Of a DNA stretch of 64,000 nt, positions 2,162-46,946 are shown one piece after another. Within the stretch, counting starts at the first letter, position 1; the number at the start of each line of letters is the position of its first letter. Location of the stretch: assembly GCF_011764425.1 (NCBI RefSeq), contig NZ_BLPF01000001.1:2285001-2349000 (forward strand), read 5' to 3'. The notes beneath the pieces are model-generated. The model was not told the origin of the DNA. It made no database searches and saw nothing but the letters and a program-made list of their open reading frames with translations. Both the position numbers and the translations under genes were made by a program. This DNA is from Phytohabitans houttuyneae (lineage in GTDB: Bacteria; Actinomycetota; Actinomycetes; Mycobacteriales; Micromonosporaceae).

Positions 2162-4619
2162 CTACTCGGGACGGAGCTGGGCCAGCGCCTCTTCCAGCTC
2201 GTCGGGCTTGACGAGCACGTCGCGCGCCTTGGAGCCCTCGCTCGGGCCGACGATGCCTCGGGTCTCCATCAGGTCCATCAGGCGGCCCGCCTTGGCGAAG
2301 CCGACCCGCAGCTTGCGCTGCAGCATCGAGGTCGAGCCGAACTGCGAGGTGACGACGAGCTCGATCGCCTGCACGAGCAGGTCGAGGTCGTCGCCGATAT
2401 CCTCGTCGATCTTCTTCTTCGGGTCCTGCACGGGGCCAGCACGTCCGGCCGGAACTCCGGCTCGCGCTGGTCCTTGCAGAACTTCACCACGTCGGTGATC
2501 TCGGACTCGTTGACCCACGCGCCCTGGATGCGGATCGGCTTCGAGGCACCCATCGGCAGGAACAGGCCGTCGCCGCGGCCGATCAGCTTTTCCGCGCCGG
2601 GCTGGTCGAGGATGACCCGCGAGTCGGCCAGCGACGAGGTCGCGAACGCCAGGCGGGACGGCACGTTGGCCTTGATCAGGCCGGTGACGACGTCGACCGA
2701 GGGGCGCTGGGTGGCCAGCACCAGGTGGATGCCGGCAGCGCGGGCCAGCTGGGTGATCCGGACGACCGAGTCCTCCACGTCGCGCGGCGCGACCATCATC
2801 AGGTCCGCCAGCTCGTCGACGATGACCAGCAGGTACGGGTACGGGCGGATCTCCCGCTCGCTGCCCGGCGGCGGCTTGACCTGCCCGCCGCGTACCTTGC
2901 GGTTGTAGTCGTCGATGTGGCGCACGCCGGCGGCGGCCAGGTCGTCGTACCGCATGTCCATCTCGCGGACGACCCAGTCGAGCGAGTCGGCGGCCTTCTT
3001 CGGGTTGGTGATGATCGGCGTGACGAGGTGCGGGATGCCCTCGTACGCGGTCATCTCCACCCGCTTCGGGTCGATCAGGATCAGCCGCACCTCGTCCGGC
3101 GTCGCGCGGGTCAGGATCGAGACGAGCAGCGAGTTGAGGCAGGACGACTTGCCCGCACCGGTCGCGCCGGCGATCAGGATGTGGGGCATCTTCGCCAGGT
3201 TGGCCACCACGTAGCCACCCTCGATGTCCTTGCCGAGCGCCACCAGCATGGGGTGGTGGTCGGACGTGGCGGCGCGGGACCTGAGCACGTCGCCGAGCGC
3301 CACGTCTTCGCGGTCGGAGTTGGGGATCTCCACCCCGACCGCGCTCTTGCCCGGAATCGGGCTGAGGATCCGCACATCGGGGGACTTCACCGCGTACGCG
3401 ATATTGCGCGACAGCTGCGTGATCCGCTCGACCTTGACGCCGTGGCCCAGCTCCACCTCGTACCTGGTGACCGTCGGCCCGCGGGTGAAGCCGGTGACCG
3501 CCGCGTCCACGTCGAACTGCTCGAACACGCCCTGCAGCGCGGCGATGACCTCGTCGTTTGCCTTGCTGCGGCTCTTGGCCGCCGCACCCTGCTTGAGCAG
3601 GTTGGGCGGGGCAGCTTGTAGTCGCCGGCCATGCCGGTGATGGCCAGCTGCTCGGCGCGGGTCGGCGGCGGCGAGTGCTCGGGCGGCTCGACGACCTTGC
3701 GGGCGGCCGGCACCGAGGCCGGTGGCTTGCGGGGCAGGAGCACCGTGTCGTGGACGATCTCCTCCTCGCCCGGCTCCCCGGACTCCTGGGGGTCGTCGGC
3801 CTTGCTCGCCACCCGGCGGCGGCTGCTGGACCGGCGCCGCACCGGCGGGGCCTCTTCCTCCTCTTCCTCCACCTCGTCTTCGTCGTCGGAGGAGGGCGGC
3901 AGCGGCCGGCCGAGGAGCGAGCCGACGAGCAGGCCCAGCCGCTCGGGGACCTTGTTGATCGGGGTAGCCGTGATCACCAGCAGGCCGAAGAGGAGCAGCA
4001 GGACGAGCAGCGGCATCGCCACCCACTCGGTCACCGCCCGCTCGAGCAGGCCGCCCACGCCGGCGCCGATCAGCCCGCCCGCGTAGTCGCGCTGGGCGTT
4101 GTCGATCGGGTCCTGCGCCAGGTGCAGCAGGCCGGCCGCGGACAGGATGAGCGCGGACCAGCCGACCAGGCCGCGGCCGCGGTGCTCAGGGTCGCTCTGC
4201 TCGCGCATGAGGCGGATCGCGGCGACCAGCAGCAGCAGGGGCAGCGCGGCGGCGATGGCGCCGAGGAAGAGCCGCACGGAGTCGGCCACCCGCTCACCGA
4301 CCGGTCCGGCGCCGGAGAACCAGACGGCGACACCGGTCAGGATCGACAGGCCCAGCAGAAGCAGGCCGCCGCCGTCACGGCGGTGCTCGGGGTCCAGCTC
4401 GCGGGCGGTGGCGGCTTGGCGGCCGACGCCCCGGACCAGCCATCCGACGCTGTGTGCGAGGCCCATCCAGACCGCACGGACACCGCGGCCGACCAGAATG
4501 GCCGGGCTGGTCGTCGAGGTGCGGCGCCGGGTGCGGGAGGTCTGCCGGGCGCGACCACTCGCGGCGCGAGCGGTGGACGCGCCGCGCCGCCGACTCGCCT
4601 GGGTCGCGCGGCCAGCCAT
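2162..4619 (-). CDS. ftsK: DNA translocase FtsK/SpoIIIE (two frameshifts in this sequence)
   Basis: FtsK pumps chromosomal DNA through the division septum. About 819 residues when two single-base losses are repaired, one near 3604-3614 and one near 2431-2435, both in G/C runs. From the ATG at 4619 there is a basic, Arg-rich leader, then four membrane segments (about residues 60-220), an acidic run of glutamates, then the RecA-like motor with Walker [10 protein letters not shown] and Walker [14 protein letters not shown]. The gamma winged-helix domain that reads KOPS-type sites is at the end ([22 protein letters not shown]). The gene is expected to be essential or important, so the breaks are probably sequence errors. 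Confidence 0.92.
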
Positions 4620-4767
4620 AGGCCCTAGGATCACACGGTAGCCACAAGGTACGACGGAAGCGCGCCCGGGGTGGCGTGTCATTTTTGGGCGCGGCGCCGG
4701 GCTGGTTGGGGGCCCAGCGGCGGGTTGGCCGGCTCGATCCAGGCGGGACATCTCGCGCCCGGGGGCT

Positions 4768-4796
4768 TTGATCCGGCGTTGGCACCGCCGTCGTAT
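4768..4796 (+). promoter_or_regulatory. possible promoter of the YbjN-Hsp90-TPR cluster
   Basis: TTGATC (4768-4773) is followed after 17 nt by TCGTAT (4791-4796), about 85 nt before the first ybjN-like start. The rest of the 261-bp gap between ftsK and this gene (4620-4880) shows no gene. The match to a vegetative promoter is weak. Confidence 0.25.
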
Positions 4797-4880
4797 CGTG
4801 CCCCGGGGACTTGGGCACCGCTCGCCACGCGGTGAGCGACACCGGAAGACTGCAGCCACATCCGAAGGGACATTTCTCGC

Positions 4881-5318
4881 ATGCCATCCGACGGCGAGGT
4901 GCAGACCCTCGCGCCGCTCACCAACGAGCTGATCGCGCAGGTGTTGAGCGCCCGCGAATACAACTTCGGCACTGACGACGACGGCGATATCGGCGGAATG
5001 TGGGACGACAACCTCATCTGGTTCTTCCGCCGCGGCTCCCAGGGCGAGATGCTCCAGGTGCGCACGCTCGCCGCGACCGAGTTCACCGTCGACGACGTGC
5101 CGCGCCTCTACGCGTTCTGCAACGAGTGGAACCACGACCGCCTGTGGCCGAAGGCGTTCGTCCACGTCAACGACGACGGCACCGTCCGCGTCTTCGGCGA
5201 GGTCACCACCGACCTCGAGCGCGGGGTCTCCCACCACCAGCTCGACCAGCTCATCGGCTGCGGCATCTCGACCGGCTGCCAGCTGGCCGAAGCCGCCGCG
5301 AGTCTGAAGGCACCGTGA
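4881..5318 (+). CDS. YbjN domain-containing protein, first copy
   Basis: 145 residues; ATG preceded by GAAGGGA at a good distance. The whole protein is a YbjN (PF10722-like) domain, a fold resembling type III secretion chaperones: LTNELIAQVL, the DDDGDIGGMWDD turn, the AFCNEWNHDRLWPKAFV helix-strand and the EVTTDLERGV segment. It is the first gene of a cluster with an Hsp90-family ATPase, a TPR protein and a second YbjN protein. Its TGA stop overlaps the GTG of the repeat mini-ORF that follows (GTGA at 5315-5318). YbjN proteins are thought to act as chaperone-like or regulatory factors; the client here is unknown. Confidence 0.85.
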   Translation: MPSDGEVQTLAPLTNELIAQVLSAREYNFGTDDDGDIGGMWDDNLIWFFRRGSQGEMLQVRTLAATEFTVDDVPRLYAFCNEWNHDRLWPKAFVHVNDDGTVRVFGEVTTDLERGVSHHQLDQLIGCGISTGCQLAEAAASLKAP

Positions 5319-5443
5319 GCGAGCGAGTTGGCGCGGCGGCGTCTGGACGGAGCCACCCCGCCGACGAAGTCGGGGTTTCGGGGTGGCGGAGGAAGACGTC
5401 GCCTCCAGCGCCGCACGAGCGAGCGAACCAGGGGGCACAGTGA
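5315..5443 (+). CDS. mini-ORF in repeat unit 1 (42 codons)
   Basis: GTG at 5315 overlaps the TGA of the ybjN gene. The frame reads 42 codons (begins VSERVGAAAS, ends ERANQGAQ) to a TGA at 5441-5443 that overlaps the next GTG. It may be a translated linker that passes ribosomes from ybjN to the Hsp90 gene. No domain is recognised, and the peptide is basic and Pro/Ser-rich. Whether it makes a stable product is unknown. Confidence 0.35.
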   Translation: MSERVGAAASGRSHPADEVGVSGWRRKTSPPAPHERANQGAQ

Positions 5444-5564
5444 GCGAGCGAGTTGGCGCGGCGGCGTCTGGACGGAGCCACCCCGCCGACGAAGTCGGGG
5501 TTTCGGGGTGGCGGAGGAAGACGTCGCCTCCAGCGCCGCACGAGCGAGCGAACCAGGGGGCACA
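5315..5564 (+). repeat. two direct tandem 125-bp units between ybjN and the Hsp90 gene
   Basis: Units 5315-5439 and 5440-5564 read as identical; the first 19 bases of a third copy (GTGAGCGAGCGAGTTGGCG) are the start of the Hsp90 gene itself. Each unit begins with GTGAGCGAG and ends with a GGGGG Shine-Dalgarno-like run just before the next GTG. Each unit therefore carries its own start and ribosome site and ends in a GTGA stop/start overlap. The unit length is not a multiple of three, so each copy shifts the frame, but the stop/start overlap resets it. Confidence 0.95.
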
Positions 5565-5568
5565 GTGA
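5440..5568 (+). CDS. mini-ORF in repeat unit 2 (42 codons)
   Basis: Encodes the same 42-residue peptide as the unit before it. Its TGA (5566-5568) overlaps the GTG start of the Hsp90 gene. The GGGGGC run about 5 nt before the GTG is a Shine-Dalgarno candidate, so re-initiation at the next gene is likely. Confidence 0.35.
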   Translation: MSERVGAAASGRSHPADEVGVSGWRRKTSPPAPHERANQGAQ

Positions 5569-7382
5569 GCGAGCGAGTTGGCGAGCATCGCTTCCAGGTT
5601 GACCTTCGCGGCGTGGTCGACCTGCTCAGCCACCACCTGTACGCGAGCCCGCGCGTCTTCGTACGCGAGCTGTTGCAGAACGGCACCGACGCGATCACCG
5701 CGCGTCGCGCCGCGGACCCGGAGGCCCCGGCCGGCCGCGTGGTCATCGAGCCGCTGCCCGGCGGCGCGCTGCGCGTGACCGACAACGGCATCGGGCTCAC
5801 CGAGGCGGAGGTGCACACGTTCCTGGCCAGCGTCGGGCGCACCTCCAAGCGCGACGACCTGGGCTTCGCCCGGCAGGACTACCTCGGCCAGTTCGGCATC
5901 GGCCTGCTGTCCTGCTTCATGGTCGCGGACGCGATCGAGGTGGTCTCCCGCTCGGCCAAGGGCGGTGACGCGGTCAGCTGGACCGGGTACTCCGACGGCC
6001 GCTACACGGTCGGCACCGCCGAGGCCGCGGAGGTCGGCACGACGGTCACCCTCCGCCCGCGCACCGGCGCGGAGCACTGGCTGACCCCGGCCACCGTGCG
6101 CGAGCTCGCGTCGTCGTACGCCCACCTGCTGGATGTCGAGGTCACCGTCGGTGGCGAGCGGATCACCGAGCCGCAGGCTCCGTGGGAGGTCACCTACGAC
6201 GATCCGGAGGTACGCCGCGCGGCGCTCCTGGAGTACGGCGCGAAGCTGCTCGGCAGCCGCCCGATGGAGGTCATCGACCTCGGCGTGCCCGAGGCGGGGC
6301 TGCGCGGCGTCGGCTTCGTGCTCGCCTCGCCGGCCCAGGTCGGGCAGGGCGGCCACCGCGTGTACCTCAAGCGCATGCTGCTCAGCGAGGACGCGTCCAA
6401 GCTGGTGCCGGAGTGGGCGTTCTTCGTGCGGTGCGTGGTCGACACGAGCATGCTGCGGCCGACCGCGAGCCGCGAGGCGCTGTACGAGGACGATCTGCTC
6501 TCCACGGTGCGCGTCGGGCTCGGCGAGCAGATCCGCACCTGGCTGCTGGACCTGTCGGTCAACGACCCCGACCGGCTGGCCGCGTTCCTGCGCGTGCACC
6601 ACCTGGGCGTCAAGGCGCTCGCGGTGCGCGACGACGAGATGCTCAAGCTCGTCGACGCGTGGCTGCCGTTCGAGACGAGCCGGGGCACGATGCCGCTTCG
6701 GGTCTTCCGCCGCGGGCTGTCGATGATCCGGTACGTGGAGACGGTCGACGAGTTCCGCTCGCTGGCCGCGATCGCCAGTGCCGCCGGCACGCCGGTGGTC
6801 AACGCCGGCTACGCGTACGACACCGAGATCCTGGAGCGACTGTCCAGGGTGGACACCGAGGCGCGGGTGCGCCGCCTCGACCCCGGTGAGCTCGCCGCGC
6901 GGCTGGACCCGCTGCCGCCGGGCCAGGAGGCGCTGGTGGCACCGTTCCTGGAGACCGCGCGGGCGGTGCTGCGCGAGCTGGACTGCGTCCCGCAGATCCG
7001 CCAGTTCGACCCGGTGACGATGCCCGCCCTGTACGTGATGAGCCAGAAGGCGCGCACCCAGGACACCGTGCGGCGCAGCATCGAGGCGGTCGACGAGCTG
7101 TGGTCGGACGTGCTCTCGGCGTTCAACGACGTGACCGTGGAGCACCGGCCGGAGCTGGTCTTCAACTGGCGCCACCCGCTGATCCGGAAGATCACGTCGT
7201 ACCCGCCGGGGCCCGCGCTGCGCCACGCCGTCGAGGCCCTGTACGGGCAGGCGCTGCTGGCCGGCCACCACCCGCTGCGCGCGGTCGACACGGCGGCGCT
7301 GAACCGGTCGTTCCTGGCGTTGCTGGATCGCGCCTTCACCGACATTCCTTCGCTTCCCTCGTCTGATCCGGAGAAGACATGA
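5565..7382 (+). CDS. Hsp90-family chaperone ATPase
   Basis: 605 residues from the GTG at 5565, chosen because it sits in the GTGA junction and because upstream sequence is repeat. The N-terminal GHKL ATPase is clear: FVRELLQNGTDAI (the usual ELxxN helix), VTDNGIGLTEAEV, TSKR and GQFGIGLLSCF. The middle domain has HRVYLKRMLLSED and RPTASREALYEDDLL, which match the HtpG client-binding middle domain. The C-terminal dimerisation part is short and has no MEEVD tail. Clustered with a TPR gene, a typical Hsp90 co-chaperone fold, and two YbjN genes. It is more divergent than E. coli HtpG, so the symbol is left blank. Its stop overlaps the next mini-ORF (ATGA at 7379-7382). Confidence 0.9.
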   Translation: MSERVGEHRFQVDLRGVVDLLSHHLYASPRVFVRELLQNGTDAITARRAADPEAPAGRVVIEPLPGGALRVTDNGIGLTEAEVHTFLASVGRTSKRDDLGFARQDYLGQFGIGLLSCFMVADAIEVVSRSAKGGDAVSWTGYSDGRYTVGTAEAAEVGTTVTLRPRTGAEHWLTPATVRELASSYAHLLDVEVTVGGERITEPQAPWEVTYDDPEVRRAALLEYGAKLLGSRPMEVIDLGVPEAGLRGVGFVLASPAQVGQGGHRVYLKRMLLSEDASKLVPEWAFFVRCVVDTSMLRPTASREALYEDDLLSTVRVGLGEQIRTWLLDLSVNDPDRLAAFLRVHHLGVKALAVRDDEMLKLVDAWLPFETSRGTMPLRVFRRGLSMIRYVETVDEFRSLAAIASAAGTPVVNAGYAYDTEILERLSRVDTEARVRRLDPGELAARLDPLPPGQEALVAPFLETARAVLRELDCVPQIRQFDPVTMPALYVMSQKARTQDTVRRSIEAVDELWSDVLSAFNDVTVEHRPELVFNWRHPLIRKITSYPPGPALRHAVEALYGQALLAGHHPLRAVDTAALNRSFLALLDRAFTDIPSLPSSDPEKT

Positions 7383-8628: not shown

Positions 8629-9020
8629 GCGTGCAGGGCATCACGGCAGCCCTGGACGACCGCGGCGACCGCTACTACGTCGACGAGGACGGCACCATCG
8701 GCGGGCAGTGGGGCAAGGGCATGGTCACGTTCGACCGGATGGGCGAGCAGGGCGAGATCCTCCACGTGCGCGTGGTGGCTCAGCGCCGCCTGCCGGCCGA
8801 CCGCCTCATGGAGGCGTACGCGTTCTGCAACGCCTGGAACCACGACAAGCTGCTGCCCAAGGCGTACGTGCACGACACCGGCCAAGGCGACCTCATCCTG
8901 GCCGGCGATATCACCACCGACCTGGAGCACGGCGTGGCGGCTCCCCAGCTGGGGGTGCTGCTGCACGCGGCGATCGTTACGAGCGCCCAGTTCGCCGACG
9001 AGGTGGCCGACCTGCCGTAG
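8616..9020 (+). CDS. YbjN domain-containing protein, second copy (or C-terminal domain of the TPR protein)
   Basis: 134 residues if started at GTG 8616, which overlaps the TPR gene's stop. It shares with the first copy the DEDGTIGGQWGKG turn, the YAFCNAWNHDKLLPKAYV segment and ITTDLEHGV, so the two are paralogues bracketing the Hsp90 and TPR genes. No strong ribosome site precedes the GTG (GAGGGG lies 12 nt away), which together with the nearby C run supports a fusion to the TPR protein. The last 44 bases overlap the convergent DUF2784 gene. Confidence 0.75.
   Translation: MAPLSVQGITAALDDRGDRYYVDEDGTIGGQWGKGMVTFDRMGEQGEILHVRVVAQRRLPADRLMEAYAFCNAWNHDKLLPKAYVHDTGQGDLILAGDITTDLEHGVAAPQLGVLLHAAIVTSAQFADEVADLP

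Positions 9021-43916: not shown

Positions 43917-46946
<3,030 letters not shown>

Follow-up and report, generated by a model that had tools for sequence, protein, structure and literature searches.

The ybjN–HSP90 junction

What is a tandem pair of 125-bp units doing between the stop codon of one gene and the start codon of the next, and how did it come to be there? This question is raised by the junction of a ybjN-family gene with an HSP90 family gene in the 64,000-nucleotide stretch of Phytohabitans houttuyneae DNA that we analysed (hereafter the window; features are collected in Table 1). An initial annotation placed the units inside a GTGA that would normally be shared by the two genes, and suggested a selfish or regulatory repeat adapted to such sites. 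TRF reports a tandem repeat at 5309–5583 (period 125, 2.2 copies, 99% matches), and both units are 100% identical to the query unit; profile matches bear out the proposed gene identities, YbjN (PF10722) upstream and HSP90 (NF010683) downstream. Each unit has the layout that had been described: GTG plus 41 codons, closed by a TGA (stop at unit base 127) lying within the GTGA that follows, with its own GGGGG at unit bases 117–121, where the family consensus is GGAGG. Each copy does shift the frame by two bases (125 = 2 mod 3). What had been overlooked is a 19-bp partial third unit at the Hsp90 start: the N-terminus of this protein, MSERVGEHRF, includes residues encoded by the partial unit, and in sister species the start lies, by eye, nearer to EHRF, i.e., without the extra N-terminal residues.

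Searching Rfam with window positions 4600–6200 (E up to 5) gave three matches, each of which fell short of the gathering score, and not one overlapped a unit; a known RNA family was rejected on this basis. Elsewhere in the window, there is a second YbjN-like stretch just downstream of the Hsp90 region (approximately 8640–9020; ORF list, by eye), and a dense, GC-rich tandem-repeat tract at 45836–46130 (periods 6 to 45 bp; TRF).

Table 1. Features of the ybjN–HSP90 junction, in window positions
Feature	Position	Strand	Basis
ybjN-family gene (gene A)	4881..5318	+	ORF list; PF10722, E 7.1e-27
TGA stop of ybjN gene	5316–5318	+	inside GTGA of unit 1
Repeat unit 1, 125 bp	5315..5439	+	TRF, blastn
Repeat unit 2, 125 bp, identical to unit 1	5440..5564	+	TRF, blastn
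Partial third unit, 19 bp, opens Hsp90 gene	5565..5583	+	100% over unit bases 1–19
Mini-ORF of unit 1, 42 codons; TGA within GTGA opening unit 2	5315..5443	+	
Mini-ORF of unit 2, 42 codons; TGA within GTGA opening Hsp90	5440..5568	+	
Unit 1 long hairpin, unit bases 1–115; three tandem G.A/A.G mismatch blocks in outer stem	5315..5429	+	fold + covariation
Unit 2 long hairpin	5440..5554	+	fold + covariation
Unit 1 GGGGG ribosome-site-like run, outside hairpin	5431..5435	+	sequence, alignment
Unit 2 GGGGG ribosome-site-like run	5556..5560	+	sequence, alignment
HSP90 family protein gene (gene B), 605 aa; GTG start overlaps mini-ORF stop	5565..7382	+	NF010683, E 2.5e-233

The unit belongs to a dispersed family

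The unit is not confined to this locus. In the host genome (11.34 Mb, five contigs, genus Phytohabitans), blastn found at least 43 matches, at least 26 of them near full length, the window copies counted in; both are lower bounds, 40 of 151 candidates having been scored. With so many matches, the best of which outside the window has an E value of 3.4e-54, the repeat is not a chance occurrence. Identity to the window unit reaches 97% among near-full-length copies at separate loci. A covariance model recovered at least 33 matches in the same genome (150 of 29717 candidates scored), and all six Phytohabitans genomes searched carry the family. Across the Micromonosporaceae, 21 of 121 genomes, in 11 of 44 genera, contain a covariance-model match at E <= 0.001, several of these 21 being weak (E near 1e-3); in one other genus the matches are short versions of about 38 nt. 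Tandem arrays of variable copy number, up to four units, were also seen. Carriage by plasmids or phages was rejected: blastn against a plasmid collection and a phage collection gave no match in either.

The family includes collapsed versions, of 29 nt (L110, P. maris) and about 38 nt (L210–L215, from the other genus), that keep the start, the ribosome-site run and the next start; these could have arisen by deletion between the two GAGCGAGCGA direct repeats. At another locus (L030, 2078–2277) a unit carries about 73 bp extra, and the ends of this insert are inverted (GAACCT...AGGTTC); it is perhaps a nested element.

Copies occupy stop/start junctions that are empty in sister species

The position of the family relative to genes was analysed in 71 sequences: 30 host loci, 40 from three other genomes (G001, G002 and G005) and the window. 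Fifteen that lacked either end were dropped (L012, L017, L031, L032, L033, L035–L038, L064, L080, L094, L096, L099 and L103), leaving 56 arrays with both ends intact; 'coding' denotes an open frame of >=80 codons with GC3 >=0.8, and 1401 DTGA sites outside the elements at the same loci served as controls. An upstream coding frame stops exactly on the unit's TGA in 41 of the 56 arrays, as compared with 84 of the 1401 controls (6.0%). A gene start coincides with the consensus unit end in 41/56 arrays (582/1401 controls, 41.5%), or in 47/56 when a 17-nt slack is allowed (617/1401 controls). Both features occur together in 29/56 arrays exactly and in 34/56 with slack, against 44/1401 and 46/1401 controls (3.1–3.3%), and at least one of them in 53/56 and 54/56, against 622/1401 and 655/1401; two arrays, L021 and L024, show neither. 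It is the upstream and joint comparisons that carry weight here: the downstream one is weak on its own, since 41.5% of controls pass it. The proposal that copies lie at stop/start junctions, and not at random positions, is supported by these 56 arrays.

The copies have one orientation, sense, ahead of genes. G003 and G004 contribute eight distinct copies of greater divergence (a count that excludes L042 and L063); six of these have the upstream frame and five a downstream start within 20 nt. The junction word also varies: the two sides differ, one being ATGA and one GTGA, at L011, L014, L019, L029, L030, L065, L072, L077, L090 and L098, among others, and ATGA is on both sides at L199 and L220. 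Bearing in mind that a gene start is present at 13 of the 15 arrays for which no upstream frame qualified, what is targeted may in fact be the start codon and not the overlap.

Sister species hold the junctions in their unoccupied state. We selected 12 loci (the window and 11 of the 30 host loci, picked for clear genes on both sides), used the start of gene B as the query against five sister genomes with 40 candidates scored per genome, and read 45 orthologous junctions; four further relatives were non-orthologous. In 32 of the 45, genes A and B share an exact, insert-free 4-nt overlap, GTGA or ATGA. Six are filled (L067, L109, L110, L124, L138 and L151), and the remaining seven comprise other spacers (L106, L139, L140 and L147), a GTAATG arrangement (L112) and two that the script did not assign (L114 and L123). 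At least one empty 4-nt overlap was found for 11 of the 12 loci, L016 being the exception; for L029, two of the three relatives come from a single genome, and one or both of these must be paralogues. These empty sites show insertion into the stop/start overlap. At the window locus itself, the expectation that the ybjN stop and the Hsp90 start normally share GTGA is borne out by G003 and G004, in which the junction is a plain, insert-free 4-nt overlap; the insert is absent from G005 too, in G002 one unit is accompanied by a 29-nt remnant, and the spacer of G001 is a different one, of 58 bp.

The reading frame is kept, not the peptide

We followed each frame through 75 units whose ends are near-complete: frame 1 reaches the unit end without a stop in 72, frame 2 in five and frame 3 in 57, and in 54 of the 75 the mini-ORF stops exactly on the next DTGA. 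The openness of frame 3 in so many units counts against the reading proposed below. Counting in-frame stops within bases 4–115 of 56 units gives 2/56 for frame 1, 27/56 for frame 2 and 14/56 for frame 3. In four arrays of G005 (L064, L074, L076 and L078), the inner units are fused without GTGA, and the frame spans two to four units before it reaches a DTGA.

Unit length is 2 mod 3 in 60/75 cases (125, 116, 122, 119, 128 and 131), as it is for a 62-nt version (G002, L138) and for the 29-nt remnant. The other 15 lengths include 118, 121, 123, 124 and 126, as well as 117 and 108, at which the end-finder halted inside fused arrays. Together with units that are out of frame with the next start (e.g., an internal unit of L018, and L023, L024, L026, L079 and L096), these exceptions indicate that perfect coupling is not required everywhere.

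Entropy is equal at codon positions 1, 2 and 3 (0.214, 0.215 and 0.222). When unpaired positions alone are considered, the values are 0.149, 0.426 and 0.205, a profile unlike that of protein-coding sequence. A functional peptide was rejected because variability is the same across the three codon positions; given also the paucity of stops in frame 1, it is the frame that is kept, and the peptide is not conserved.

A covarying hairpin on the sense strand

The 56 aligned units yield a single hairpin, bases 1–115, with the ribosome site outside it. Pairing holds in 98.5% of 2179 cells. Nine pairs are changed on both sides, which amounts to 55 compensatory cells versus 14.4 in shuffles (0/500 as high); relatedness of the copies inflates such counts, and a slid-partner control, which gives 0 or 1 double-changed pair, keeps that relatedness but is biased towards a structure that was itself obtained from these sequences. 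The fold of a single unit is less distinctive, at z -2.3 only, with 5 of 200 shuffles equally good. That the sense strand carries the structure follows from the excess of G.T cells over A.C cells, 168 versus 7; two near-constant G.T pairs account for 105 of the 168, and the remainder is 63 versus 7. The outer stem consists of 2-bp blocks parted by three tandem G.A/A.G mismatches, which are kept in 54–56 of the 56 units. In two of the three copies that start with ATGA, the base paired with base 1 is likewise changed, C becoming T.

The unit ends pair with each other only through the 2-bp blocks between G.A mismatches, and both bear the direct repeat GAGCGAGCGA. Comparing the bases to the left of the first and last DTGA in 54 cases, we found agreement above permutation at -1, -2 and -3 (25, 36 and 20 of 54; p = 0.0004, with 13.7 expected, 0.0024 and 0.02), in a test that kept a few misplaced right ends (L022, L024 and L087) and left shared descent of the copies uncorrected. 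At -4 to -6, agreement above the permuted level was not seen. A target duplication of fixed length is not supported, the agreement being limited to -1 to -3; it is compatible with target duplications that vary in length, or with insertion guided by homology. A consensus scan found no promoter (sigma-70-type consensus only) and no terminator, and a role as either was rejected on that scan.

A probable mobile spacer that ribosomes may cross

We consider it very likely that the unit is a mobile, ribosome-transparent hairpin that rides in translationally coupled junctions. It would be a non-autonomous repeat whose family spread across Phytohabitans and its relatives by insertion at the DTGA that forms a gene's start codon and, usually, the previous gene's stop. 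The left-end (D)TGA provides both a stop for the upstream gene and a new GTG reading frame; that frame passes through the long hairpin stop-free, and after it come a ribosome site of the GGAGG type and another DTGA, which serves as mini-ORF stop and downstream start. Ribosomes that finish gene A should thereby initiate again on the mini-ORF and be handed on to gene B, and for this reason one insertion, or several in tandem, would cost the operon little. Translation of the mini-ORF and its coupling to gene B are predictions from this arrangement; the hairpin may be the form that is recognised during mobilisation, and maintenance of the family is probably selfish. As to the initial choice of 'selfish or regulatory', the selfish option is favoured because there is no codon-position constraint, no promoter or terminator pattern in the consensus scan, and an empty counterpart of 11 of the 12 loci in one or more sister species; the element may still have some regulatory side effect.

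A fixed regulatory RNA element, an attenuator or translational switch that tunes gene B relative to gene A, would account for a strong, covarying sense-strand hairpin inside a presumed mRNA and for copies being sense-oriented ahead of genes. We judge it quite unlikely: fixation sits poorly with those 11 loci and with tandem copy number that varies, the consensus scan showed no terminator pattern, and a mobile element can likewise need a hairpin, for its mobilisation. Annotation of the neighbouring genes covered those in the window, and a common theme among the neighbours at other loci is conceivable. It is also unlikely, if a little less so, that the copies owe their spread chiefly to GTGAGCG micro-homologies, through gene conversion or template switching and with no dedicated enzyme. 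Units begin GTGAGCG, as do many downstream genes, and the flank agreement beside DTGA that is most significant at -1 would be in keeping with such a process; that agreement equally fits target-site duplication, and the 26 near-full-length copies at separate loci, with identities of up to 97%, suggest an efficient process.

The conserved mismatches of the hairpin, the favouring of one strand and the DTGA at the left junction recall REP/RAYT-type or IS200/IS605-type elements, which a Y1 transposase moves as single-stranded DNA. Such a mobiliser appears highly improbable here and was not supported by the PF01797 searches of 21 + 10 genomes: at E <= 0.001, and with a sensitivity such that this protein family was found in 5 of 14 control genomes, the domain was detected in 1 of 21 genomes, which belongs to another family, and in none of the six Phytohabitans; 10 other hairpin-carrying genomes, seven taken from the inner-motif search and three from the covariance-model search, gave one short match, covering 40 of 121 positions and just over the cut-off. 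There is also the prospect that the two window copies, being 100% identical, are an assembly artefact of a single copy. This is very unlikely, and even if true would leave the family-level result unaffected: tandem arrays as such are real, because non-identical ones of up to four units exist elsewhere, in the host genome (L018) and in G005, a 10.1-Mb genome in a single contig.

An inner motif shared beyond the family

When 397 genomes of the order were scanned for the inner motif TCTGGACTGAG...GAGGGAAGA, which encloses a variable loop, eight had it, host included, from three families, with up to 46 copies in one genome; the reversed control of the motif has no occurrence in these 397 genomes. 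In two other families (L234–L262), the hairpins that carry it have different outer stems and loops, and many have their right end near ACAG (by eye). Among 25 such loci of these two families (two overlap), a qualifying gene start lies within 100 nt downstream in six, three of them DTGA, and a qualifying gene end lies within 80 nt upstream in four. Within the Micromonosporaceae, the motif hairpins L205, L208, L209 and L222 have no qualifying gene boundary. From the scarcity of gene boundaries at the 25 loci, the preference for junctions would seem to be a specialised trait within the Micromonosporaceae. A further match to the inner motif, perhaps by chance, lies in a 167-kb contig of a viral catalogue (L264, 614–665), where it adjoins a pentapeptide-repeat-like coding sequence (by eye).

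We tentatively entertain a wider reading, possible rather than probable, in which these hairpins form an order-wide superfamily of mobile elements defined by the inner motif. One Micromonosporaceae branch would have become ribosome-transparent and start-codon-targeting, supplying stop, start, ribosome site and open frame, and would be moved by a non-Y1 mechanism, perhaps guided by pairing of its own end with the target DTGA, or via an RNA form; mycobacterial interspersed repetitive units (MIRUs) would be a second branch, convergent or distantly related.

Implications

The empty sites demonstrate that mycobacteria are not alone in having elements that shelter in translationally coupled junctions. 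The 4-nt overlap seems to offer a refuge in actinobacterial genomes that are dense with genes, and an element can adjust to it by turning into a translatable spacer. The many young copies and empty sites in these soil bacteria offer a tractable system for studying how MIRUs move. There are also consequences for annotation: part of the Hsp90 start described here comes from the repeat, and a mini-ORF at such a junction is more likely a spacer than a gene.

Comparison with known systems

REP elements are dispersed, non-autonomous hairpin repeats with many copies per genome. The Phytohabitans family resembles them in being dispersed in many copies and in conserving its hairpin as a structure; it differs in that no Y1 transposase was found in the six Phytohabitans genomes, and in that its copies, which carry an ORF and a ribosome site, are placed between genes at junctions and all face the same way. 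MITEs are short, non-autonomous and dispersed, and so is the Phytohabitans repeat. What may separate it from DDE-type MITEs is the nature of its ends, an imperfect inverted repeat with conserved G.A mismatches and the direct repeat GAGCGAGCGA, and flank agreement beyond DTGA that is partial (-1 to -3 only), with no target duplication of fixed length seen.

The closest parallel is with MIRUs, which were reportedly described by Supply and colleagues in 1997. DTGA is the MIRU target word and, to our knowledge, the mechanism by which MIRUs move is not settled. A 2025 review portrays MIRUs as seemingly mobile, inserting at start codons, with an internal ORF that is coupled downstream at -4 nt (PMC12548453). 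They are further described as forming tandem arrays with units of 77 bp and 53 bp (PMC2453075), and as restricted to M. leprae and the M. tuberculosis complex (PMC4213456). Set against these descriptions, the Phytohabitans repeat likewise sits at a start codon or DTGA, with a 4-nt overlap with the downstream gene and predicted coupling; it has an open frame through the unit (open in 72/75, stopping on the next DTGA in 54/75); it forms tandem arrays of variable copy number; and 77 and 53 are both 2 mod 3, as are 60 of 75 Phytohabitans unit lengths. It differs from those accounts in unit length, 125 bp versus 77 or 53 bp, and in belonging to another genus and family, and it may further be set apart from MIRUs by its long covarying hairpin with tandem G.A mismatches. 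Our covariance model gave one match, inside a 912-codon open frame, in 60 genomes of the genus taken to be Mycobacterium; in the open-access literature we found nothing on such a family outside mycobacteria. By comparison of descriptions, then, we would call the Phytohabitans family MIRU-like, and not a MIRU: the design, a start-codon insert whose ORF is coupled to the downstream gene, is one already described for MIRUs, and here it is apparently built on another sequence.
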